A stretch of DNA of 33,916 nt. Origin: a virus. The stretch lies in IMG/VR virus record IMGVR_UViG_3300002835_000623, positions 1 to 33,916 of that record; one strand, written 5' to 3'. Below, one piece after another: positions 1,905 to 26,924 of the stretch (its first letter is position 1; each line of letters opens with the position of its first letter). The translations under genes were made by a program, and so were the position numbers. The notes beneath the pieces were generated by a model. It was not told the origin of the DNA, searched no databases, and saw only the letters and a list, made by a program, of their open reading frames with translations.

Positions 1905-1914
1905 AATAATGACC

Positions 1915-2043
1915 TTAAGATTTTAAAATTGAAATAGAACCATTTACCACGCTAACGCTATATTGTGACGCACTAACCAATGAAACAGTAATCAATAAAG
2001 CTAATAAAACAGATACAACAAAAGAAAAAATAAATACTTTCAT
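1915..2043 (-). CDS. Tiny membrane or secreted protein (42 aa)
   Basis: Starts MKVFIFSFVV and has one hydrophobic segment at about residues 3-24 ending in LVSASQ, which could be a signal peptide (cleavage after SA or SAS) or a membrane anchor. The remaining short tail is polar/beta-like. A Shine-Dalgarno AGGTG lies about 6 nt upstream on the minus strand, and a promoter-like pair (2110-2138) points at it. Too short for a family call. Confidence 0.55.
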   Translation of the reverse strand: MKVFIFSFVVSVLLALLITVSLVSASQYSVSVVNGSISILKS

Positions 2044-2109
2044 GAAAACACCTAAAAAAAGAAAAAAGAAAAATAAAAAAGTTAACGTATTTTAATCTTT
2101 TTTGCTTTC

Positions 2110-2138
2110 TTATCAAATTAATTTTACTTTATCGTCAA
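2110..2138 (-). promoter_or_regulatory. Leftward promoter for the minus-strand gene cluster
   Basis: On the minus strand TTGACG (2133-2138) is followed after 17 nt by TGATAA (2110-2115). The spacer starts ATAAAGTAAAA, close to the AACGTAAAA seen in the spacers of several plus-strand promoters of this window, so it may share their regulator. Confidence 0.45.
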
Positions 2139-2177
2139 AATAAAATCACTTATATAATAAAAACAATAAGTTACTAT

Positions 2178-2203
2178 TCGCGCGTCATTTTGTCGCGCGT
2201 CAT
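2178..2203. repeat. Direct repeat TCGCGCGTCAT x2
   Basis: The 11-mer TCGCGCGTCAT occurs at 2178-2188 and 2193-2203, 15 bp apart (about one and a half helical turns). It is strikingly GC-rich for this region. It lies between the leftward promoter and the putative rightward promoter. Confidence 0.7.
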
Positions 2204-2228
2204 GCATTGCCCTTTTTATGCGGTATAC

Positions 2229-2280
2229 TTTACAAGTAATTTATTTTTTCACTATATATAGCGAGAAAAACAGCTCTTTA
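2229..2280 (+). promoter_or_regulatory. Putative rightward promoter with boxA-like leader
   Basis: TTTACA (2229-2234) and TATATA (2253-2258) are 18 nt apart. About 15 nt downstream lies GCTCTTTA (2273-2280) followed by AAAA, which matches the core of the boxA antitermination sequence in phage nut sites and rRNA leaders. No protein gene follows for more than 1 kb, so the transcript may be a leader or non-coding RNA. All inferred from motif matching. Confidence 0.35.
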
Positions 2281-2313
2281 AAAATACGCGCCTACCAGTT
2301 CGCAGCTTTTAAG

Positions 2314-2388
2314 TTATCAGGTATTACTTATCAGGTATTACTTGATTAATCAATCGAGCTGTAAAGTCTACCAGTCAATTTAATTGAC
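2314..2388. repeat. Tandem 14-bp repeat plus two palindromes (operator-like)
   Basis: TTATCAGGTATTAC is repeated head to tail at 2314-2327 and 2328-2341. It is followed directly by the perfect palindrome TTGATTAATCAA (2342-2353), the AAGTCTACCAGT repeat (2364-2375), and a 15-bp inverted repeat with arms GTCAATT/AATTGAC around one T (2374-2388). A small hairpin (AACCTTA/TAAGGTT, 2421-2441) follows. Such packing is typical of a control region with several protein-binding sites. Confidence 0.75.
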
Positions 2389-2493
2389 GATAAATAGCTA
2401 TAGGATTCAATCACTTATAAAACCTTACACTTTATAAGGTTAGATAATTGTATATGAATCAATCACTTAGAAAAACCCTAGTTTCAAAATGGT

Positions 2494-2533
2494 ATAAATC
2501 CACTACTTTTCAAGTGGTATTTATCACTTTTTT
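2494..2533 (+). terminator. Probable rho-independent terminator
   Basis: An 11-bp stem with one bulge (ATAAATCCACT / AGTGGTATTTAT, 2494-2524) is followed by CAC and six T residues. It would end a short RNA begun at the putative promoter near 2255. Confidence 0.55.
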
Positions 2534-3068
2534 CACTCTGAGACCAATATGCTCAAATTTGCCCGCTATGCCCCGTTCAGGTCTTAAGGAATACTACGAC
2601 CACACTCAGAGCCTGAAATCGTCTCCTAGACCCCTTAGAATTCAATTTAGAGGTATGATTTCACAAAAAGCTCGTTAGCCTGTAAAATTTTTCATGGTCA
2701 ATTCAATTTCCATTTTCATTTCACAAAACTGGAAGGCGTATTTTTAGACACAGGTGACACAGGGTGCAGCTCCTTCTTGTCTTCCTCAGCTCCCGCAGCT
2801 CAGGAACGGTCACGCAGCTCCTCCTTGTGACACATCAGGTCACAGGGTAAAATCAACAGCCAATCCAAAATCCCTTCAGAATTGACCCACAGTGGTCTTT
2901 TGTGTCACAGGTAATACCAATGTAGCACCCAATCCCTCCTCGTGCCTTCAGCACACCTTAAAATCAAAATTATGACCCCTTTTTCACATTATCCCACTAG
3001 CCCATAAAATTATTTTGCACAAATTGGATTTTGAAGTCCGTTCTGGCAAACTCAAAATATTTTTCATT
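2534..3068. other. Gene-free region with CAGCTC repeats
   Basis: No believable gene on either strand. Composition changes to more GC and pyrimidine-rich on the plus strand. GCAGCTCCTTCTTGT (2766-2780) and GCAGCTCCTCCTTGT (2814-2828) form a near-exact 15-bp direct repeat 48 bp apart, with two further CAGCTC words between. GGTGACACAGGG and GGTCACAGGG words flank them. This could be a structured RNA or part of an origin. Confidence 0.5.
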
Positions 3069-3101
3069 AAACCCTATGTGATTGATTTCACAGGGTTTTT
3101 T
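3069..3101 (+). terminator. Rho-independent terminator
   Basis: AACCCT...GTGA pairs with TCAC...AGGGTT with a 2-nt bulge and a short loop, followed by a run of six T residues. It closes the gene-free transcript region on its right side, just before the AT-rich stretch. Confidence 0.75.
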
Positions 3102-3118
3102 ACGTTTGTTGATTTCTT

Positions 3119-3143
3119 AAGTTATTGATTTTTTTAATAACTT
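3119..3143. repeat. Hairpin AAGTTATT/AATAACTT
   Basis: A perfect 8-bp inverted repeat around a 9-nt AT-only spacer, located between the terminator at 3069-3101 and the two GGCA...TGCA sites. Role unknown. Confidence 0.5.
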
Positions 3144-3149
3144 TATTTG

Positions 3150-3169
3150 TTGGCATAATAAATGCATAA
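3150..3169 (+). promoter_or_regulatory. Sigma-54-like site 1 (GG-N10-GC)
   Basis: TTGGCATAATAAATGCATAA has GG and GC exactly 10 nt apart, with TGGCA and TGCAT, as in -24/-12 promoters of RpoN. It also contains the inverted repeat GCAT-N5-ATGC, so a dimeric binding protein is an alternative. Confidence 0.35.
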
Positions 3170-3186
3170 CGAAAAATAATTTTTTT

Positions 3187-3206
3187 TTGGCACGGAAAGT
3201 GCATAA
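3187..3206 (+). promoter_or_regulatory. Sigma-54-like site 2 (GG-N10-GC)
   Basis: TTGGCACGGAAAGTGCATAA has TGGCACG and TGCAT with GG-N10-GC, very close to the RpoN consensus. It shares TTGGCA-N4-AA-N-TGCATAA with the site 37 bp upstream. It contains GCAC-N5-GTGC. No activator gene is visible in the window. Confidence 0.4.
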
Positions 3207-3300
3207 AGAGCAAAAAGAAAAAATGTAAGTAATTGATATTATTAATAATATATATATAATACTATATTTATATATTTATCACTGTTCTCCGCGGTTTTTT
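3207..3300. other. Very AT-rich stretch, candidate DNA unwinding element
   Basis: Almost pure A/T with a 16-bp palindrome ATATTATTAATAATAT (3236-3251) and alternating AT runs, ending at CCGCGG followed by T residues. It is directly next to the iteron-like array, as in many plasmid and phage origins. The role is inferred. Confidence 0.45.
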
Positions 3301-3317
3301 TATCTTCTTGTCAAACT

Positions 3318-3517
3318 TGTATCCATGTATCCATTTGGACACCACTCTCTATCCCTTGATTTATATGGGTTTGAGACCATTTTACCTCTGTATCCATGGA
3401 TACAACTTGTATCCATAAAAATCCCATTAAATATGCCCTCAGACCATGTGATTCGTGGCTTACAGCATGGATACAGAATGGATACATGGATACAAAATGG
3501 ATACAAGTTGTATCCAT
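3318..3517. repeat. Iteron-like array: ten copies of TGTATCCAT / ATGGATACA
   Basis: The 9-mer TGTATCCAT occurs forward at 3318-3326, 3326-3334, 3389-3397, 3408-3416 and 3509-3517, and inverted at 3396-3404, 3467-3475, 3478-3486, 3486-3494 and 3497-3505. Copies at 3389-3404 form a perfect 16-bp palindrome. Copies at 3396-3416 and at 3497-3517 form 21-bp inverted repeats (arms ATGGATACAA, central base C or G) that are exact reverse complements of each other. Nearby copies are often 8 or 11 bp apart. This is a protein-binding array: origin iterons, a partition site, or a multi-site operator for the downstream operon. Confidence 0.9.
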
Positions 3518-3689
3518 CCCCTCATTAGGACTTTATAAATTTATAAATCTTTTTTTAAGACACTTTATCTTTATATTTCAATAACTTAATCTTAAAAAAC
3601 TAATCAAAAACGAGATATTCTTTTAAATTCAATAACATACAACCACACTTATCAGCCAAAAAACACCTAATCTCTTACAAATCAACAAC

Positions 3690-3704
3690 ATGACAATTTG
3701 TCAT
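3690..3704. promoter_or_regulatory. Palindromic operator candidate ATGACAATTTGTCAT
   Basis: A perfect inverted repeat of 7-bp arms around one T. It lies about 50 bp upstream of the -35 box of the promoter for the 3814 gene, and may bind an autoregulator such as one of the two ribbon-helix-helix-like proteins encoded next. Confidence 0.5.
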
Positions 3705-3752
3705 ACTTGTGACCCATATAAATAAGTAAAACAATTTTTAAATAAAGAATGT

Positions 3753-3781
3753 TTGACAATAATGTTTTTTTAATGTACATT
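3753..3781 (+). promoter_or_regulatory. Sigma70-type promoter for the replication operon
   Basis: TTGACA (3753-3758), 17-nt spacer, TACATT (3776-3781). It starts a short AT-rich leader before the 3814 gene, whose Shine-Dalgarno is GGAG. Confidence 0.65.
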
Positions 3782-3813
3782 TAATTTTTTTTTTATTTGT
3801 TGGAGAAAATTGT

Positions 3814-4011
3814 ATGACTGTTTTTAAAAAGTACGAATCACAAAAACGAGAATCGGAAGACGATGGTGTGACAAAAAGTTACCGTCTCTCTTCTCAAGCT
3901 GACGCAGATAGATTTGATGAGCTATTTAAACGCTCCAATCTTCGCACTAGAGGTGTGTTTTTTATGTTTTTGTTAGACTGTGCAGAACTACACCTACATG
4001 AATTGGAGTAG
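3814..4011 (+). CDS. Small ribbon-helix-helix-like DNA-binding protein (65 aa)
   Basis: Unknown by name. After a charged, flexible N-terminus (residues 1-18), the sequence VTKSYRLS (19-26) fits a beta strand, SQADADRFDELFKRS (27-41) fits helix A and NLRTRGVFFMFLLDCAELHL (42-61) fits helix B, the order of the Arc/MetJ (RHH) fold used by repressors and by ParG-type centromere-binding proteins. It is the first gene after the iteron-like array, the palindrome at 3690 and a strong promoter, with the next gene 3 nt downstream. Inferred role: binding those repeats for autoregulation, replication control or partition. An unrelated helical protein remains possible. Confidence 0.6.
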   Translation: MTVFKKYESQKRESEDDGVTKSYRLSSQADADRFDELFKRSNLRTRGVFFMFLLDCAELHLHELE

Positions 4012-4014
4012 TCA

Positions 4015-4899
4015 ATGAGCCGAACAAGATTGGTATTTGAATGTGACCAAGATGTGTTAACTGGTATCAATGAACAATTCTTGAGAAGAGGGATGCAAAA
4101 TAAACCCGCAAAAGAAAAGGCTAAATATATATTGGATATGATGATTAATAATGTGACCTACAATCCAATGGTCACACCTATTCCATCACCAACCCAACTT
4201 CAACCTGAAATAACAGGACTAATCGCTATGTTTCAAAATCAATTTAAAGAACAAGCTGAGATAAACGCTGAGATACTATCTAAAATATCTAAATTAAAGA
4301 GCATAAATGAAGCTATATCCTCCGTAAACGATGAACCCGATACCACTACACCACCCAATGTGTCAAATGTGTATGAGAAGTCATCTAAAGCAGCAATTGA
4401 AGAGTGCAATAACTACACATATAAAGCACAATCATTAAACACCCGATTAAGTGCTGTTGTGCCAACATTGACATATGAGTTACACAAATCATATTTATCT
4501 GAAACCACCTCTGTGACAAATGATGTCTCCATCGGTATTCGTGATAACAAAAATAAGATTAAGGATTTAATAGATAAGTATGAATATGAACTAAGACAAT
4601 TAATGTCAAAATTCATAAGCAATTCAATACTTGTGTCACATATCACCATCCATGATGATAGGTTTTATAGATATTTAAACTCAAGGTATAAAGCACAATA
4701 CGGAGCTGATTCAACCTTAACGAGCATATGTGACCTAACATTAATCGAGTTATATGATTTATTAATATTATTACCTGTGAACACAATAGTTAAAGATGAA
4801 TCCTATCCTCCAAGGTCACCTCATTGGTGGCTAAAGAACTTATATAGCAGCATATATGGAATTATCTGGTCAAATGGTAATGAATTCACAATAATTTAA
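4015..4899 (+). CDS. Unknown protein with RHH-like N-terminus and coiled coil (294 aa)
   Basis: No family recognised. The N-terminal 45 residues again fit strand (TRLVFECD, 3-10), helix (15-28) and helix (31-45), like a ribbon-helix-helix domain. Then comes a Pro-rich linker (NPMVTPIPSPTQLQP, 50-64), a helical, coiled-coil-like stretch (66-100) that could drive oligomerisation, a Thr/Pro-rich break, and a C-terminal half of about 150 residues with Tyr/Leu/Ile-rich helices. Starts with ATG 6 nt after GGAG and 3 nt after the previous stop, so the two are co-transcribed; primase follows. A replication-initiation or origin-binding role is inferred from position and architecture only. Confidence 0.65.
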   Translation: MSRTRLVFECDQDVLTGINEQFLRRGMQNKPAKEKAKYILDMMINNVTYNPMVTPIPSPTQLQPEITGLIAMFQNQFKEQAEINAEILSKISKLKSINEAISSVNDEPDTTTPPNVSNVYEKSSKAAIEECNNYTYKAQSLNTRLSAVVPTLTYELHKSYLSETTSVTNDVSIGIRDNKNKIKDLIDKYEYELRQLMSKFISNSILVSHITIHDDRFYRYLNSRYKAQYGADSTLTSICDLTLIELYDLLILLPVNTIVKDESYPPRSPHWWLKNLYSSIYGIIWSNGNEFTII

Positions 4900-4909
4900 G
4901 GAGAATAAA

Positions 4910-7423
4910 ATGAACAATGAAGAAATGAATGAACGGACGGACGAAACAATTAATTTATCCAATGCAAGGTCAAAGCATTGGAATCGGATACCTGTGTCAT
5001 TAATGAATGAAAGATGCTGGTTAATTGGTGCAAATGAAGCCGATATTACAAAAGCAGGCAAGCGTCCATGTACAATTGACCATTTGGGTAATTTAGTCCC
5101 TGCAAGTATCAAACTAAAACATGATTGGTTAAGTTATGAAGAAGCGGTTATTTATGCTGATTCAAATGATTTAAACGTGGGTATTGTATTGCATCCAGAT
5201 TTAAATATTGCTGTGATTGATTTAGATATTAAAGATAAGACATCATCCGAAGTTAAATCAGAGATTCACAATTTAATAAAAACATTTGATTCCTACACTG
5301 AATTATCATCAAGTGGTAAAGGATTCCACATTTACTTAAAAACGGAGATGCAGATTTCAGGTGTGCATCCTCGCAATTTCCCAATCCCTATTGAAATATA
5401 CACTAAAGATAGGTTTATGCTGTGTACGGGCAATGAAATAGTTATTGATGATTCCATGAATGTGATTGAATTATCTGACACATCACCTAGTTCAATGCGA
5501 AAGTTACTTCACTATCGTGAACCACAACTCGATAAATTACTATCTCTCATTGGTGTTGACAAAAATAATTGTGCCAATTTAATTGAAGTTGCTCCCGACT
5601 CATCTGATGACGATGTGTTGTCATTAATCTATAGTTCCGCATGGGGTGTGAAGTTTGTTGAACTAGGTGATTTACCACATTCAGTGGACTTTTCACAATA
5701 TGGATATCCTAGCTGTAGTGAAGTTGATATTTATTTAATTGGCATTATTTGTCGTCACACTGAGTCTAATTCACAAGTCAGACGATTATTTCGTACATTA
5801 ACTGTCGCTAATCGAGATAAGCATATAAGGGGTGATTACCATATCAATTTATGTATTAGTAAAGCACGATATTCAATTGAATGTAATCGTGAGGAAATGG
5901 AATTAGCGACTAAAGCCACAACTGAGTTCTTTGAGAATGTGAACAATCGTATTGATTATGAGCGCAATGAGCTTAAGAAACTCACACATAATGTTGAGCA
6001 TTTAGAGTTTGGTGCATATGAATCAACTAATGATTTTAAGGATATGATTCCATTCCCATCAGGCATGGCTGGTGATATGTGTCAATTTATGATTGATATT
6101 GCTCCTCATAAATTGCGCGAAGCTGCGCTCGCAGGAACACTTGCTATGTTATCTGCTATCTGTGGACGACAATGGAATTTTAGTGGTGCTGGACTTAATA
6201 ACTATTATATTGTCATAGCACCAAGTGCTACGGGAAAAGAAACGTCAAGAAGGGGTATAGGTCGCATGGCAGATGTATTATCTGCTGTAGGAGGTGATAA
6301 GTTCTTTGTATTCGACACAATGGCAAGTAAACAGGCATATTTGACATTATTTTCTAAGTCAGAGACAACATCACATTTAATTTTTGTTCCTGAATTCGCG
6401 AAGTATTCCCGTGCATTACGTCAGAAACAGAATACTGTGATGCAAGCAATTTATTCTTTTTGGCTTGAAATCTTTCCTCGTAGTGCGAAAGGGGATGTGA
6501 ATGGCGGTAATAAACGTGCGTCAAGTGATGATTCAATATCGGGCGTTTTATCACCTGCTATGACGTTACTTGGTGACTGTACACCTGATGATTACTATGA
6601 GGGCATAACAGAGGAGATGCAACGAGATGGTTTCTGTAGTCGTTTTGTGAATATTGAATATTTAAGCGGCAAAAAAAGCCTTTCTGATTTCTCTGCGTCA
6701 ATGACTGTTGTGCCTGAAGAACTCGCATTTAACTTTAAAGAATTAGCAAAATATGCATTAGAGTTAAAAGCGAAAGAAGAAGTTATTTCAGTAAATATAT
6801 CCCCTGAAATCATTATGCAGGTTAAATCATTTGAACAATATACCGTTGATATGATTAATCGCACAATGGATGAGCGATATAGGCAGCCTTTCAATCGCTG
6901 TTACCTAAAGATAATGACCGTTGCATCATTACTTGCTATTACTCGCAATATGTTTGCACCTGTGATAAGCCTTGAAGACTTCAACTGGGCGAAAGGGTTA
7001 ATCATGCGAGATGTGTACAATATTATCTCAAAACTTGATGAAGGTACATTTGGTACATCGGATACCAATAACACAAAACTCGTATTAGGTGAGATTAGAC
7101 GTTGCCTAACACCTATTAATCGTACTGAATTCGAGAAAAATAGATTCAATGATTTACTTGATAAAGGTATTGTCCCTCGTAGTATTCTACAAACTCGATT
7201 AGCATCGAGAGCGAATTTCAAACGGGATGGTATCTCCGCAGATAAACTGCTTGATAGCGTCCTAGATGATTTTGCTAAAAATGGTTGGCTTATTAAGATT
7301 GATAAAAGCAACCGCATTGAATGGTATACCAAAGCCAAATATACGGGTAAGTATACTGGCTTGGCATACATTATTTTAGATTCCCATCGTTTTCAAAAAG
7401 AGGTTAAAAATGAAATTAAATAA
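4910..7423 (+). CDS. Primase-helicase (AEP prim-pol domain plus DUF3987-like helicase)
   Basis: 837 residues. It makes primers and unwinds DNA at the phage fork. The N-terminal domain is of the archaeo-eukaryotic primase type: IDLD (103-106, metal-binding Asp pair), SSSGKGFHIY (133-142) and a conserved EIYTKDRFM...TG (162-173). A linker follows, then a P-loop ATPase of the DUF3987 type with Walker A APSATGKET (437-445) and a downstream LLGDCTPDDYYEGI...GFCSRF segment typical of that family. The C-terminal region after about 700 looks like a small winged-helix part. ATG sits 8 nt after AAGGAG. It follows the two RHH-like genes and the iteron array, which supports a role in origin firing. Catalysis is inferred from motifs. 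Confidence 0.85.
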   Translation: MNNEEMNERTDETINLSNARSKHWNRIPVSLMNERCWLIGANEADITKAGKRPCTIDHLGNLVPASIKLKHDWLSYEEAVIYADSNDLNVGIVLHPDLNIAVIDLDIKDKTSSEVKSEIHNLIKTFDSYTELSSSGKGFHIYLKTEMQISGVHPRNFPIPIEIYTKDRFMLCTGNEIVIDDSMNVIELSDTSPSSMRKLLHYREPQLDKLLSLIGVDKNNCANLIEVAPDSSDDDVLSLIYSSAWGVKFVELGDLPHSVDFSQYGYPSCSEVDIYLIGIICRHTESNSQVRRLFRTLTVANRDKHIRGDYHINLCISKARYSIECNREEMELATKATTEFFENVNNRIDYERNELKKLTHNVEHLEFGAYESTNDFKDMIPFPSGMAGDMCQFMIDIAPHKLREAALAGTLAMLSAICGRQWNFSGAGLNNYYIVIAPSATGKETSRRGIGRMADVLSAVGGDKFFVFDTMASKQAYLTLFSKSETTSHLIFVPEFAKYSRALRQKQNTVMQAIYSFWLEIFPRSAKGDVNGGNKRASSDDSISGVLSPAMTLLGDCTPDDYYEGITEEMQRDGFCSRFVNIEYLSGKKSLSDFSASMTVVPEELAFNFKELAKYALELKAKEEVISVNISPEIIMQVKSFEQYTVDMINRTMDERYRQPFNRCYLKIMTVASLLAITRNMFAPVISLEDFNWAKGLIMRDVYNIISKLDEGTFGTSDTNNTKLVLGEIRRCLTPINRTEFEKNRFNDLLDKGIVPRSILQTRLASRANFKRDGISADKLLDSVLDDFAKNGWLIKIDKSNRIEWYTKAKYTGKYTGLAYIILDSHRFQKEVKNEIK

Positions 7424-17342: not shown

Positions 17343-18185
17343 ATGAGTTTTTTAAGCAGAGCATTAACAACAGAATCAAAACAAGAAGGTCTTCGCCTTA
17401 TCGCGGCTGGTATTGAAGGTATTGGTAAAACAACACTTCTCGCATCAGCACCTAAACCTGTATTCATTGCTTTAGAAAAAGGCTATGTGGATGTGGATAG
17501 AGAAAAAGTAGCCATTATACCTATGCATGATGCGTCATATACCGATTTAATTGAATTATTTGGTGAGTTATCTGAACTAGTGATGGCTGGCACATTTGAG
17601 TATCAATCAATTGTTGTGGATTCATTATCCGCTCTTGAGCGTATTATCCACACGCACGTTATCGCTCTTGACCCTGTGTCAAGAACAAACCCAAAACTCA
17701 CTATGTTATCAGCGCATAATGGCTATGGTAATGCATATAATGTATCCAATACTATCTGGCAAGACACTTTAAAATGGCTTGATTTCTTTGCTGATAACGG
17801 AATCAACATTTGCTGTTCTTGCCATGTATTTACTAACCTAGAGCGCGATACGATTAGCGCAACAGAATTTCATTTTACTGATGCATTATTGCACTCACCC
17901 AAATCATCAAAATCATTTGGTTCTCGTGAACTTGTGACACAATGGTGTGACATCTTTGGTATGCTTTATACCTCTAAAACACCTGTGGGTATGGGTAGTG
18001 GTATGAATACCGCTGATATTGATAGAGAACAAGGTGTCACACTAGGTGTTGTACAGAATGCAAGATTCCGTTCAAAGAATCGTTTTGGTCTTGAGCGTGA
18101 TATTACAATCACAAAAAATGATGGTTGGAATTGTATTGCTCAAGCCATCTATGATGCTAAAGGCAGTGATTATTTTTCAAAATGA
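17343..18185 (+). CDS. Sak4-type RecA-fold ATPase (AAA_24), recombination
   Basis: 280 residues. Sak4-type proteins are RecA-core ATPases that, with an ssDNA-binding protein, promote annealing or strand exchange of phage DNA. Here LIAAGIEGIGKTTLLASA (19-36) contains Walker A GIEGIGKTT (23-31), IALEKGYVDVD (42-52) follows as usual for AAA_24, and YQSIVVDSLSALERI (88-102) contains the Walker B Asp at 93. CCSCH at about 158-162 and VTQW...FGMLY complete the usual core. Starts after CTGGAGAG and is the first gene after promoter P3. It is upstream of the DUF669 protein and exonuclease genes, the usual neighbours of Sak4 in phages. Confidence 0.85.
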   Translation: MSFLSRALTTESKQEGLRLIAAGIEGIGKTTLLASAPKPVFIALEKGYVDVDREKVAIIPMHDASYTDLIELFGELSELVMAGTFEYQSIVVDSLSALERIIHTHVIALDPVSRTNPKLTMLSAHNGYGNAYNVSNTIWQDTLKWLDFFADNGINICCSCHVFTNLERDTISATEFHFTDALLHSPKSSKSFGSRELVTQWCDIFGMLYTSKTPVGMGSGMNTADIDREQGVTLGVVQNARFRSKNRFGLERDITITKNDGWNCIAQAIYDAKGSDYFSK

Positions 18186-18424
18186 TTACAGTTCAAGATA
18201 TCATGTCACGACTTAATGTGACCGAGAAACAGGTTGAAATGGCTGTGTATAGCGGTGCTATACCAGCTCCTGATAACATTATCTGTAATGTTTGGGTAGA
18301 TGAAGAAAGAATCCAACCTTACCTAGATCATTGGGATTCACGACTCAAACGTAAACGTGAGAAAGAGTATTATGAAAATAATATTATTGTTGGCAATATG
18401 ACATTTCCGACTCACCAGCGTTGA
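18182..18424 (+). CDS. Small HTH protein, excisionase/MerR-like 3 (80 aa)
   Basis: MITVQDIMSRLNVTEKQVEMA followed by VYSGAIPAP (read in parts) and VWVDEERIQPYL show the HTH_17 layout: HTH at 2-22, G-x-I-P turn at 25-29, wing at 38-48. A basic stretch RLKRKREKEYYE (54-65) may add DNA contacts. It overlaps the Sak4 stop by 4 nt, so it may control or accompany recombination. Confidence 0.65.
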   Translation: MITVQDIMSRLNVTEKQVEMAVYSGAIPAPDNIICNVWVDEERIQPYLDHWDSRLKRKREKEYYENNIIVGNMTFPTHQR

Positions 18425-20395: not shown

Positions 20396-23212
20396 ATGTC
20401 ACAAGTAAAACTACGGTGTTATCAACAAAGAGCTATTGATGAAACGCTTGCCTTTATTCGTGCAGGTAAAGGTAATCCTGTTATTGCAGCTCCAACGGGA
20501 TGTCATGCGATTAATCATGGAATACTCATGTTTGATGGCTCAATTAAAAAAGTTCAAGATATTGTTGTCGGTGATTTACTTATGGGCGATGATTCCACTC
20601 CTAGAAAAGTGCTTTCATTAGCTCGTGGTAGACAAGAAATGGTAAAAATTATTCCTAATAAAGGTCATGATACTTTTGTTGTTAATAAAGACCATATTCT
20701 TAGTTTAAAAACAACTAAATTTGACAATTATGCAAAGGGAACAGTTATTAATTTAACTTTTAATGATTTTGTTAAAAAAGCCAATAACTTTAAAGATAGG
20801 GTAAAATTATATAAATCTGAGATAGTTATGTTTCCAGAAATAGAAAAACCAACAATTGATGCTTGGATTGCTGGTTTGATGCTTGGTGATGGCTCAATGA
20901 TGTCAACACCAATATTAACAAGTATGGATGTTGAAATTGTTAATCGTTTTACAGATTATATTGACTTGATTGGTGACCTTAAAATATCTATTTTAAAAAG
21001 AATCAATAATCAATCAAAAATGTATCGTGTTGCAAGAGTTAAAAATGGTTTGCAATATAATAAAAACAAATTTACAAAATTACTTGAGGATAACGGTCTA
21101 TGGGGTAGAATTCACAAAGATAAATTTGTCCCAGATATTTTTAAATTTGGCTCTATTGAAACCAGATTGGAAGTATTGGCTGGTTTATTGGATTCAGATG
21201 GTCATATAGCCAAAGGTACTAGTTTTGACTTTATCAGCAAATCACGACAGTTATCTGAAGATGTGGTATTTATTTCCAGAAGTTTAGGTTTATGGGCAAC
21301 AATATCTGAATGCACAAAAGGTTGTCAGAATAACTTTAAAGCGCAGTATTGGCGTGTTTGTATCTCAGGTGATGTTGATAAAATACCTGTTATAAAAAAT
21401 AGGGATTGTTTAACAAAACGAAAAATGAATAAAGACCCATTAGTAACTGGGTTTAAATATGAAGAATTACCTGAGGATGACTTTTATGGGTTTGAATTAG
21501 ATGGTAATCATTTATATTTAGATGAATTCTTTTTTGTGCATCATAATACAGGTAAAGCCTTAATTATTTCAGGGTTAATAAAGCAACTTGTATTTGAATT
21601 CCCTCGTCTTAGAATTGTTGTAGTTACTCATGTCAAAGAATTAGTTGAACAAGACTATAACGAGCTTGAGAGACTTTGGTCAACAGCACCATCGAGTATT
21701 TATTCTGCTGGTCTTGGCAAAAAAGATATTTCTCAAATCACATTTTGTGGAATAGGAAGTATTGCCAATAATGCAGATTTGCTCGGTAAAGTTGATTTAG
21801 TGATTGTGGATGAAGCACATTCAATTAGCGGAAATGAAACCACTACTTATGTGAAGTTTATTAAAGCTTTAGAAGCTAAAAATAAATATCTCAAAGTGGT
21901 GGGATTATCTGCGACTTGTTATCGTCTTGGACATGGATTGATTACAGAGAACCATCCTATCTTTGATGGATTTTCAATTGATTTAACTAGTTTCCATGAA
22001 TTCAATTGGTTTATTGAAGAAGGTTATCTTGCCACACTGACATCTAAAAGAACCAAATCTCAATTAGATGTCACAGGTGTTAAGATTACTGCGGGTGATT
22101 ACAATTCAAAACAATTAGCGCAAGCAGTGGATAAGATTGAAGTCACTCGTGAAGCATTAAAAGAAGCGGTAGCATATGGACATGACCGCAATTGCTGGAT
22201 ATGTTTTGCCACAAGTATTGACCATGTGATTCATATCACAGATATGCTTAATGATGAATTTGGTATCCCTGCGGTAGCAGTGCATTCAAAGATGAGCAAT
22301 GATGAGCGTGATACCGCTATTCAAGATTTTAAAGATGGTAAGTATCGCTGCGCTGTAAATGCAATGGTTTTAACAACGGGTACAAATATTCCTCAGATTG
22401 ACATGGTGATTGATTTAGCACCAACCACATCAACCGCTAGGTACATCCAGAGGTACGGAAGAGCGACTCGCCCAGTGTATGCCAAGGGTTATGACTTATC
22501 GACCAAGGAAGGGCGATTAGAAGCGATTTCAGCGGGTATAAAGCCTAATGGCGCATTGTGTCTTGACTTCTCAGGAACGATTGCCCGATTAGGAATGATT
22601 AATGACCCAGTGATACCTAAGATGAAAGGGGAAGGAAAGGGTGGTAATCCCCCCGTGAAAACGTGTATTTATTGCCAAACAATAAGTCATCCTTCTGTGA
22701 GAGTCTGCCCAGAATGCGGACATGACTTTCCGTTTGAAGTAAAGATAACTCACACGGCATCAACACAAGAAATTATTGCAAAAGAACCTCGTACCAAAAT
22801 CGTTAATCATGAAATAGAAGATGAATGGTATGAAGTTTATGATGTGCAGTATTCAAAGCATATTATCCGTAAAACAGGTATTCCGATGCTTCGTGTTGAA
22901 TATAATTCTGCCACACTAGGTGCGACTGAATGGGTGGGTTTTGAGAACCCTTTAGGTTCACCTCAACGTGGCATGGCATATGGTTGGTGGGCAAAAAGGG
23001 TCATTGGTAAATGTCCAAAAACGATTGACTGTGCGCTCGCGTATGTGGGACAATTACCTAAACCACTAGAAATATTGGTTTCACAAAAAGGTAAATACCT
23101 TAATGTAAAAAAAGTTAGGTTCGCAGATGGATTTATTCCAGAAAATGTGGATGAAATAATTATTGATACAAAATCAGCATTAGAATTTACTGATGACGAT
23201 ATCCCATTTTGA
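20396..23212 (+). CDS. SF2 DEAD/DEAH helicase with intein in Walker A and SSB-like tail
   Basis: 938 residues before splicing, 589 after removal of the 349-residue intein (residues 36-384). The N-terminal extein is the Q-motif part (CYQQRAIDETL...APTG), which joins TGKALIISG to make APTGTGKA, the Walker A. After the intein come VDEAH (Walker B, DEAH at 472-475), helicase C motifs (VHSKMSNDERD, ATTGTNIPQ-like region, RYIQRYGRATR), then a Cys-4 zinc ribbon (C757, C760, C771, C774) and a C-terminal domain. The last residues, EFTDDDIPF, are almost identical to the tail of bacterial SSB. Without splicing the ATPase site should be broken. It is part of the replication/recombination group. Confidence 0.9.
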   Translation: MSQVKLRCYQQRAIDETLAFIRAGKGNPVIAAPTGCHAINHGILMFDGSIKKVQDIVVGDLLMGDDSTPRKVLSLARGRQEMVKIIPNKGHDTFVVNKDHILSLKTTKFDNYAKGTVINLTFNDFVKKANNFKDRVKLYKSEIVMFPEIEKPTIDAWIAGLMLGDGSMMSTPILTSMDVEIVNRFTDYIDLIGDLKISILKRINNQSKMYRVARVKNGLQYNKNKFTKLLEDNGLWGRIHKDKFVPDIFKFGSIETRLEVLAGLLDSDGHIAKGTSFDFISKSRQLSEDVVFISRSLGLWATISECTKGCQNNFKAQYWRVCISGDVDKIPVIKNRDCLTKRKMNKDPLVTGFKYEELPEDDFYGFELDGNHLYLDEFFFVHHNTGKALIISGLIKQLVFEFPRLRIVVVTHVKELVEQDYNELERLWSTAPSSIYSAGLGKKDISQITFCGIGSIANNADLLGKVDLVIVDEAHSISGNETTTYVKFIKALEAKNKYLKVVGLSATCYRLGHGLITENHPIFDGFSIDLTSFHEFNWFIEEGYLATLTSKRTKSQLDVTGVKITAGDYNSKQLAQAVDKIEVTREALKEAVAYGHDRNCWICFATSIDHVIHITDMLNDEFGIPAVAVHSKMSNDERDTAIQDFKDGKYRCAVNAMVLTTGTNIPQIDMVIDLAPTTSTARYIQRYGRATRPVYAKGYDLSTKEGRLEAISAGIKPNGALCLDFSGTIARLGMINDPVIPKMKGEGKGGNPPVKTCIYCQTISHPSVRVCPECGHDFPFEVKITHTASTQEIIAKEPRTKIVNHEIEDEWYEVYDVQYSKHIIRKTGIPMLRVEYNSATLGATEWVGFENPLGSPQRGMAYGWWAKRVIGKCPKTIDCALAYVGQLPKPLEILVSQKGKYLNVKKVRFADGFIPENVDEIIIDTKSALEFTDDDIPF
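20501..21547 (+). mobile_element. LAGLIDADG intein (349 aa) inside the helicase
   Basis: Begins with Cys36 (CHAINHGILMFDGSIKKVQ region, block A), has a block B-like GHDTFVVNKDHILSL (90-104), two LAGLIDADG-type motifs WIAGLMLGDGSM (157-168) and EVLAGLLDSDGHI (259-271), and ends FFFVHHN with Asn384 followed by Thr385 as the first C-extein residue. The position, after APTG and before TGK, is the Walker A site used by many inteins. All splicing residues are present, so it looks active. The homing endonuclease motifs keep their Asp residues and may still cut an empty site. Confidence 0.92.
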
Positions 23213-24789: not shown

Positions 24790-24969
24790 TTGAGTCATAA
24801 TTTAAATTGGGCGGATATTGACTTGCCCCCAATAAACCTGTGGTCAGTACCATTTATGCCAATTAAACCAAAAACAATTGATGAAAATAATCATCAATTT
24901 GATGTAGTTCGTGCTAAAGAAAGACAAGTTATTTTTAAAGATTTATTAACTAAAAGAGCTAAATTATGA
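24790..24969 (+). CDS. Small protein with TTG start before the reductase (59 aa)
   Basis: Open frame from TTG 24790, ending in an ATGA overlap with the ribonucleotide reductase gene. Begins (M)SHNLNWADIDLPPINLW and has FDVVRAKERQVIFKDLL at the end. The tight coupling supports a real gene, but there is no clear Shine-Dalgarno. An internal ATG (MPIKPK) is an alternative start. Confidence 0.4.
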   Translation: MSHNLNWADIDLPPINLWSVPFMPIKPKTIDENNHQFDVVRAKERQVIFKDLLTKRAKL

Positions 24970-26924
24970 ATGAAATAAGTGCAAGAGCAGAAATTATTAC
25001 AAAAAGAACATATAATAGACCAAAAGAAGACGGTTCTTTTGAATCTTGGAATGAAACAGTTGACCGTGTTATTGGTCATCAAAAATGGTTATGGGAACGA
25101 GCAAAGCATTCAAAATTAAATAAATCTGAACTAAATGAATTATCAGAACTTCGTGAATTAATGCTTGAAAGAAAAGCATTAATGTCAGGCAGAAGTCTGT
25201 GGCTCGGTGGAACAGAATTATCTAAAAAGAGAGAAAGTTCACAATTTAATTGCTCATTCACAAATGTTGAAACCGTGTATGATGTTGTTGATTGCTTTTG
25301 GTTATTGTTACAAGGCTGTGGCGTTGGGTTTAAACCTGTTCGTGGTACACTAAATGGGTTTAGCAAGGCTATTGCTAACGTAGAAATTATTAGATCAACA
25401 AGAAGCGATAAGTTAGGAAATCAGAATAATGTTGAAACATTTGATAGGGATACAAAAACATGGACAATTATAATTGGTGATTCTGCTGAAGCATGGGCAA
25501 AATCAATAGGAAAGATATTAGCTGGTAAACAATTAGCAGATAAACTGATTCTTGATTTTTCACAATTGCGTCCAGCGGGTGAAAGATTGCGCGGTTATGG
25601 TTGGATTAGTTCTGGCGATGATGCTATTGTGAAAGCATATTCAAGAATTGTTGAAATAATGTCTAAGAGAGCTGGAAACTTATTATCGGCTATTGATATT
25701 CTTGACATTATGAATCATCTTGGCACTGTTTTGAGCAGCAGACGTTCAGCACAAATAGCCATATTGGACGTTACTGATTATGAAGCAAAAGAATTTGCAA
25801 CGGCTAAAAAAGATTTTTGGCTATATGATAATGCACATAGATGTCAATCCAATAATTCTCTTGTATTTCATACCGAGCCAACACATTCAGAACTTACAAA
25901 AATTTTTGAATTAATGGAGTTATCGGGTGGCTCAGAACCAGCGTTTATTAATGCTGAAGTGGCTAAAAAACGCGCCCCTTGGTTTGCTGGATGTAATCCT
26001 TGTGTTGAAATTCTATTGGGCAATAAATCATTCTGTAATTTAACTGAAATTGATATTGGTAAATTTCATGGTGACACAGATGGTTTAAATAGAACACTAT
26101 ATATTGTGGCTAGAGCTAATTATCGTCAAACATTAGTTAATTTAAAAGATGGTATTCTTCAAGAAGCATGGCATTTAAATAATGAGTTTTTAAGACTGTG
26201 TGGCGTTGGATTAACAGGTATTGCCAGAAGACCTGATTTGGTTGCGTATGATTATCAATCAATGCAACGAATTGCCACATCAGCGGCTTATTCAATGGCA
26301 GATGAGCTTGGAACACAAAGACCAAAAAATGTAACTTGTGTTAAACCAAGTGGTACATTATCTAAGATTATGGATACAACAGAAGGTGTTCATAAACCAC
26401 TTGGAAAATATATTTTTAATAATGTTGTTTTTAGTAATCATGATGAAAACTTGAATTTGCTTCGTGATGCGGGATATAAAATAATACCTCATCCAAATGA
26501 TACAACAAGTTGTATTGTGACATTCCCTGTTGCATGGGATGATGTGCCGTTTGATTATTGGAATGGTATGGAGGTTAATCTTGAATCGGCTATTTCGCAA
26601 CTTGAAAGATATGCATTGCTACAAAATAACTGGACACAACAGAACACATCTGTGACAATTAGTTATTCACCAGATGAAGTAGAAGATATTGTTAATTGGC
26701 TTTTAAAGAATTGGAATCTATATGTTGGTGTTAGTTTTTTATATCGTGCTGACCCAACAAAAACAGCCGCTGATTTAGGTTATCAATATTTACCACAAGA
26801 AGTTGTAACAAAAGAAGCATATAATGAATATGTTGCCAATTTGAAACCAGTTGAAACAACAGGGTCTTTTACTGAAATTGAAAGTCAGGAAGGATGTGTT
26901 GGCGGGGTTTGCCCAGTAAAATAA
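24966..26924 (+). CDS. nrdJ: Class II (adenosylcobalamin-dependent) ribonucleotide reductase
   Basis: 652 residues. It reduces ribonucleotides to deoxyribonucleotides using AdoCbl. The radical site NPCVE (344-348; Cys346 thiyl, Asn344 and Glu348) and the redox pair Cys96 (FNCS) and Cys357 (FCNLTE) are present, as is the C-terminal dithiol C644VGGVC649 that re-reduces the site. These correspond to the L. leichmannii RTPR pattern; this protein is about 90 residues shorter. Other marks are GCGVGFKP (117-124) and VKPSGTLSKI (about 455-464). It is a single-gene enzyme with no NrdB in the window. A terminator follows its stop. Confidence 0.88.
   Translation: MNEISARAEIITKRTYNRPKEDGSFESWNETVDRVIGHQKWLWERAKHSKLNKSELNELSELRELMLERKALMSGRSLWLGGTELSKKRESSQFNCSFTNVETVYDVVDCFWLLLQGCGVGFKPVRGTLNGFSKAIANVEIIRSTRSDKLGNQNNVETFDRDTKTWTIIIGDSAEAWAKSIGKILAGKQLADKLILDFSQLRPAGERLRGYGWISSGDDAIVKAYSRIVEIMSKRAGNLLSAIDILDIMNHLGTVLSSRRSAQIAILDVTDYEAKEFATAKKDFWLYDNAHRCQSNNSLVFHTEPTHSELTKIFELMELSGGSEPAFINAEVAKKRAPWFAGCNPCVEILLGNKSFCNLTEIDIGKFHGDTDGLNRTLYIVARANYRQTLVNLKDGILQEAWHLNNEFLRLCGVGLTGIARRPDLVAYDYQSMQRIATSAAYSMADELGTQRPKNVTCVKPSGTLSKIMDTTEGVHKPLGKYIFNNVVFSNHDENLNLLRDAGYKIIPHPNDTTSCIVTFPVAWDDVPFDYWNGMEVNLESAISQLERYALLQNNWTQQNTSVTISYSPDEVEDIVNWLLKNWNLYVGVSFLYRADPTKTAADLGYQYLPQEVVTKEAYNEYVANLKPVETTGSFTEIESQEGCVGGVCPVK

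Follow-up and report, generated by a model that had tools for sequence, protein, structure and literature searches.

What could an array of short inverted words be doing immediately ahead of a set of phage replication genes? The window, by which we mean the whole 33,916-nucleotide stretch analysed (IMG/VR virus record IMGVR_UViG_3300002835_000623), carries between positions 3318 and 3517 ten exact copies of the 9-mer TGTATCCAT, five per strand. On comparison with related phages we consider it probable that this array serves as the binding platform in an iteron-type phage replication origin, working by the theta mode and probably in both directions. Clustering of the word, AT-rich neighbouring DNA and adjoining replication genes, all features of iteron origins, are found together in the window.

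The array of inverted words

An earlier reading of the letters (here called the sequence-only reading) had placed ten copies of the 9-mer in this interval, and our word count bears out their positions. Outside the array the word occurs once in the 34-kb contig, at 26370 on the minus strand, and so is not equally common elsewhere. In whole-contig dinucleotide shuffles 0.55 copies were expected and 3 were seen at most, and the largest 200-bp cluster of any 9-mer was 4, both in shuffled sequences (200 Markov-1, 200 Markov-3 and 1000 local) and in the rest of the window. The array, which is the strongest mixed-orientation array of the contig, cannot be explained by chance. Its words fall into three groups of 2, 3 and 5 copies with 59-63 bp between the groups, and the start-to-start steps are 8 bp in the first group, 7 and 12 bp in the second, and 11, 8, 11 and 12 bp in the third. 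The two 21-bp inverted repeats built from them, ATGGATACAACTTGTATCCAT and ATGGATACAAGTTGTATCCAT, are both present and are reverse complements of each other as had been noted, but since each is a 10-bp palindrome around a single base and the two differ only at that base, their complementarity adds no independent information. The very AT-rich DNA described just upstream of the array is there also (Table 1). The cluster of TTWTNCACA boxes that a DnaA-box origin would have was not seen: no such box lies inside the array, two lie at 2980 and 3013, and the ten matches of the whole contig, where 8.1 were expected, do not amount to enrichment.

Arrays beside the primase/helicase gene in related phages

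Arrays of TGTATCCA were also found in unrelated viral contigs (L005, L035-L037 and L028-L046), and a scan of viral contigs gave 19 array loci with the word against 12 with a reversed-word control. The possibility of a universal or conserved box was rejected on the strength of this control and of the many matches that lie inside replisome-organizer genes. Because the reversed word was found nearly as often, arrays were compared by position and not by word, in relatives chosen through the primase/helicase family. It is true, as the sequence-only reading supposed, that no phage system with this 9-mer is known, but this is beside the point, since words vary among phages. Several of the arrays in unrelated contigs deserve mention in their own right. 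In L036 (5930-6243) and L037 (7938-8049) mixed-orientation arrays of TGTATCCA flank VapE-like primase/helicase genes, a label read from the sequences, which are homologous to each other. In L028-L046 (for example L029 6818-6867 and L043 10793-10831) the arrays lie within MAERRMFAK-type replisome-organizer genes, as origin-like repeats. In L005 (4439-4553) eight words, almost all pointing the same way, lie in a small open reading frame (ORF) between terminase genes, where they encode repeated Met-Asp-Thr.

When position is considered, several relatives of the phrog_3022 family have mixed-orientation arrays of 6-9-bp words adjoining the primase/helicase gene, with words of their own: ACCCTAT in Seurat, CACTAT in WildeMaa and SHIN8, GTAACC in BP15, CCTTATA in Halfdan, GTTGTAT in Kharn and GTTTTC in phiAxp-1. 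In Seurat, WildeMaa, Kharn and phiAxp-1 the array beside the primase is the strongest mixed-orientation array of the genome. A census of 90 further primase loci added examples at L096 (TGTAATA), L124, L129, L130 (CCATTAC), L163/L164 (TTGGTAT) and L171 (GTTTAAG), the words given being those of metagenomic contigs. AT-rich flanks accompany the arrays of the window, Seurat, WildeMaa, BP15, phiAxp-1, L096 and L124. Among the 17 strict mixed arrays of the census, those of L117/L118, L126 and probably L142 resemble coding or linker repeats; with such repeats set aside, 9 of 11 arrays lie at most 3.3 kb upstream or at most 0.3 kb downstream of the primase, a clustering (binomial P ~0.0015) that is only suggestive, as the region was chosen after seeing the data. 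An array beside the primase is recurrent in these relatives, not universal, and Kimi has no clear array. Vibrio phage BP15 (L078) has in addition a second array of the same word (GGTTAC) at record position 45104, about 9.5 kb from the first.

GC skew at the arrays

In complete genomes, the detrended cumulative GC skew reaches its minimum close to the array in five relatives: the distance is 4 bp for WildeMaa, 110 bp for Halfdan, 228 bp for Seurat, 231 bp for SHIN8 and 830 bp for BP15. Three of these five genomes are Seuratvirus. In Seurat, WildeMaa and Halfdan the coding strand switches some 2-3 kb away from the point at which skew minimum and array match, so that the direction of transcription does not explain the match. 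A rough combined P for six genomes, using the minimum alone, is 2e-6. It assumes uniform positions and independent genomes, counts Seurat and WildeMaa as two despite their common flanking DNA, and is to be read as strong, not exact.

Which protein reads the word

Seven Seuratvirus genomes proved informative in separating the word from the primase. In Seurat and slur01 ACCCTA occurs nine times and CACTA at most once, whereas SHIN8, KS_A8, WildeMaa, Greed and Dru_SM1 have 11-15 copies of CACTA and none of ACCCTA. Among Seurat, slur01, SHIN8 and KS_A8 the primases are nonetheless 98-100% identical (SHIN8 and Seurat, whose words differ, share 99.7%), and those of WildeMaa and Greed are only 77-78% identical to this group, yet their word is that of SHIN8. 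By these comparisons the word cannot be set by the primase alone in Seuratvirus, and must be read there by another protein. Two ORFs upstream of the primase, one of about 250 residues (phrog_27223) and one of 67 (phrog_11967), sort with the word: the larger is 41-47% identical between word classes and at least 55% within the CACTAT class, and the smaller 57-58% and at least 70%, respectively. This suggests that the two ORFs encode the word reader in Seuratvirus, although with two word classes an effect of function cannot be told from one of descent and linkage.

The corresponding candidates in the window, by analogy of position, are ORFs of 65 and 294 residues at the head of the replication operon. 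The sequence-only reading had taken both for genes like those of ribbon-helix-helix (RHH) proteins; the ORFs are present, and the RHH assignment was not confirmed, as Pfam, PDB-sequence and PDB-fold searches gave no supporting match for either. In an AlphaFold2 single-sequence model of the 65-residue ORF the C-terminal part forms two helices with good confidence; these would fit an RHH fold but are not a test of it, and a Foldseek search with this ORF returned no match. The model of the 294-residue ORF (pLDDT, the model's confidence score, 41) was unusable, and no relatives of this ORF were found among the phages or viral contigs searched. A separate small ORF at 18182-18424, located after the Sak4 gene, has a weak match to phrog_11967 (E 0.008); in the relatives the gene of this family stands directly before the primase, whereas the window match lies elsewhere.

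Gene setting

Protein affinities place the contig with the tailed phages, as a relative of the Queuovirinae. Its family-B DNA polymerase is about 45% and its primase/helicase about 27% identical to those of Pseudomonas phage NP1, and the affinities of both proteins lie with the Queuovirinae and neighbouring phages (Nipunavirus NP1, Amoyvirus R7M, Seuratvirus, Septimatrevirus and Lokivirus). The sole close relative found is a fragment with an identical C-terminal primase, and the phage collection held no DNA-level relatives of positions 2500-4910.

The array lies in a 1.9-kb gap almost free of ORFs (1905-3813), to the left of which terS and a DUF7227 gene are read leftward. To the right, the rightward block opens with the 65- and 294-residue ORFs and the primase/helicase, whose place downstream of the array had been correctly recognised, and continues with a Sak4-like annealing protein, SSB, a Cas4-type exonuclease, an intein-bearing helicase, a B12-dependent ribonucleotide reductase, PhoH, a dUTPase and the polymerase. 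Nine promoter-like consensus sites such as the one listed for the operon were counted, and 9.1 in shuffles. Within the gap, the 1.4 kb at 1905-3317, which separate the late block from the early one, show no convincing gene; they include a 14-bp exact tandem repeat at 2314-2341 and GC-richer CAGCTCC repeats at 2766-2828. Rfam and tRNA scans gave no matches. Further along, the helicase gene (20396-23212) has an in-frame intein at its ATP-binding (Walker A) motif, with a LAGLIDADG homing-endonuclease domain, and the reductase (24966-26924), of class II, is 71% identical to that of a Manatee Spring phage (MW202615) and about 57-62% identical to those of Roseobacter and Celeribacter phages.

Table 1. 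Positions of the array and of the features around it in the window
Feature	Position	Strand	Remark
terS	152-652	leftward	
AT-rich stretch	3220-3290		86% AT; candidate unwinding element
Word starts	3318, 3326, 3389, 3396, 3408, 3467, 3478, 3486, 3497, 3509	+, +, +, -, +, -, -, -, -, +	
21-bp palindrome from two words	3396-3416		ATGGATACAA-C-TTGTATCCAT
21-bp palindrome from two words	3497-3517		ATGGATACAA-G-TTGTATCCAT
AT-rich spacer, array to operon	3518-3813		78% AT
Promoter-like TTGACA-17-TACATT for operon	3753-3781	+	consensus match only
65-residue ORF	3814-4011	+	candidate array-binding protein by position; RHH fold unconfirmed
294-residue ORF	4015-4899	+	candidate array-binding or initiator protein by position; without detectable relatives
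Primase/helicase	4910-7423	+	phrog_3022 (E 1e-118); weak DUF3987 match

Origin, operator or other site

For the way in which such an origin would work, we infer that a phage protein encoded by one or both of the ORFs at the operon head binds the words in both orientations, that the bound reader then melts the adjacent AT-rich DNA, either the upstream stretch or the spacer, and that it recruits or loads the primase/helicase, whose gene comes next in the operon, after which replication would run in both directions. Several observations weigh against an origin of this kind. The skew minimum of Kharn and phiAxp-1 lies 8-10 kb from the array, and that of the window, at 4822, is 1.3 kb past it, in a linear fragment with a gene-strand switch nearby. 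The place of the array varies between phages, from upstream of the operon (upstream of the primase in Seurat, WildeMaa, SHIN8 and BP15) to immediately downstream of the primase (Halfdan, Kharn and phiAxp-1). No comparable exact array was found in NP1, R7M, 83AMN, JenK1 and other relatives, and the 65- and 294-residue ORFs have no detectable homology to the Seuratvirus candidate readers.

The most serious alternative is that a small repressor, encoded by the 65- or 294-residue ORF, uses the array as an operator to control the replication operon or divergent promoters, in the manner of CopG-like or omega repressors, and that the array is then no origin in itself. An arrangement of this kind would suit the position of the array in a divergent early/late intergenic region and the 8-bp step between some neighbouring words, which fits tandem binding; an RHH protein of the omega type binds 7-bp words, direct and inverted (PMC9499535), and pRN1 has a repressor gene ahead of its primase/helicase gene (PMC4234260). 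We nevertheless think it unlikely, given that 235 bp separate the array from the promoter-like site closest to the operon, that the spacing is irregular with its wide gaps between groups, that the array is downstream of the primase in three relatives and that skew minima coincide with arrays in five. The sequence-only reading had left the choice between an origin and a partition site. Its first half is favoured by the syntenic arrays of relatives, the five skew minima and the AT-rich flank, while a centromere-like site of a phage-plasmid seems very improbable. The parS of pSM19035, it is true, is made up of 7-bp words in mixed-orientation arrays that an RHH ParB reads (PMC9499535), but this site needs at least four contiguous heptads and the words of the window are 7-63 bp apart; moreover, the ORFs scanned, which do not include every small ORF and which are those of a virulent-type phage, contained no gene resembling ParA, ParM or TubZ, and the lack of a ParA makes a partition site less likely.

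Equally slight is the likelihood that the words bind a host factor or are a functionless, neutral repeat expansion. Similar TGTATCCA arrays do occur in unrelated contigs, but the reversed-word control puts such sharing near background, words differ within one host species (Seurat and SHIN8, both of E. coli), and exact copies in both orientations and three separate clusters are unlike slippage. Least probable of all is a packaging (pac) or terminase-binding site: terS is 2.7 kb from the array, whereas the arrays of relatives track the primase/helicase gene and not the terminase genes.

A replication origin remains our preferred reading of the array, and it leads to a broader proposal, to which we would give even chances: that the origins of phages of the phrog_3022 group are of one common, undescribed type, in which the array and the protein that reads it can be exchanged together as a cassette next to a primase/helicase that stays constant. 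The window phage would be a divergent member of this group, with a word and a reader of its own. If a small reader apart from the primase were indeed swapped together with the word, this would explain how the same replication enzymes serve different origins. Related phages would then carry different origin specificities, akin to the incompatibility types of plasmids, and origin specificity and competition between co-infecting phages would become directly testable. Cultured E. coli phages from a standard laboratory collection are among the relatives (WildeMaa is Bas23), and in them the arrays mark a precise, short test region.

Comparison with known systems

We found no published description of these arrays, and no described replication origin for Queuovirinae or Lokivirus- or Septimatrevirus-like relatives, in the literature searched, which leaves out subscription journals and preprints; the passages that searches of the Loki, phiAxp-1 and BASEL papers brought up do not mention the arrays. 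Among described systems, the parS/operator heptads of the RHH protein omega of pSM19035 (PMC9499535) resemble the window in having short direct and inverted words and possibly a small RHH reader, but those heptads are contiguous and have a ParA partner, whereas here the words are spaced. Similar in gene order is pRN1, in which orf56, a small regulator gene, is followed by the primase/helicase gene orf904 with a cis element beside the operon (PMC4234260); its putative origin, however, is a stem-loop without iterons (PMC4234260), unlike the word array of the window. The satellite origin of PLE, with its RepA_N iterons (PMC7145576), is an iteron origin of the phage world with a dedicated small initiator apart from the polymerase; it uses a RepA_N initiator, and no RepA_N match was found among the window ORFs.

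With the iteron origins of lambda O and the replisome organizers (including the MAERRMFAK type of L028-L046) the window would have in common an initiator encoded at the repeats and an iteron origin beside replication genes. In the lambda O type, however, the repeats lie inside the initiator gene, and here they are intergenic, in both orientations and have a primase/helicase as neighbour. Satellite phage P4 has at ori1 its type I repeats, short words in both orientations with AT-rich DNA, served by the alpha primase/helicase, and in these respects it is like the origin proposed for the window. A winged-helix domain of alpha binds the origin repeats, and unwinding and priming by alpha follow (PMC4234260). 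In P4 alpha itself thus reads the words; this kind of reading does not hold in the Seuratvirus relatives, where different words go with almost the same primase.
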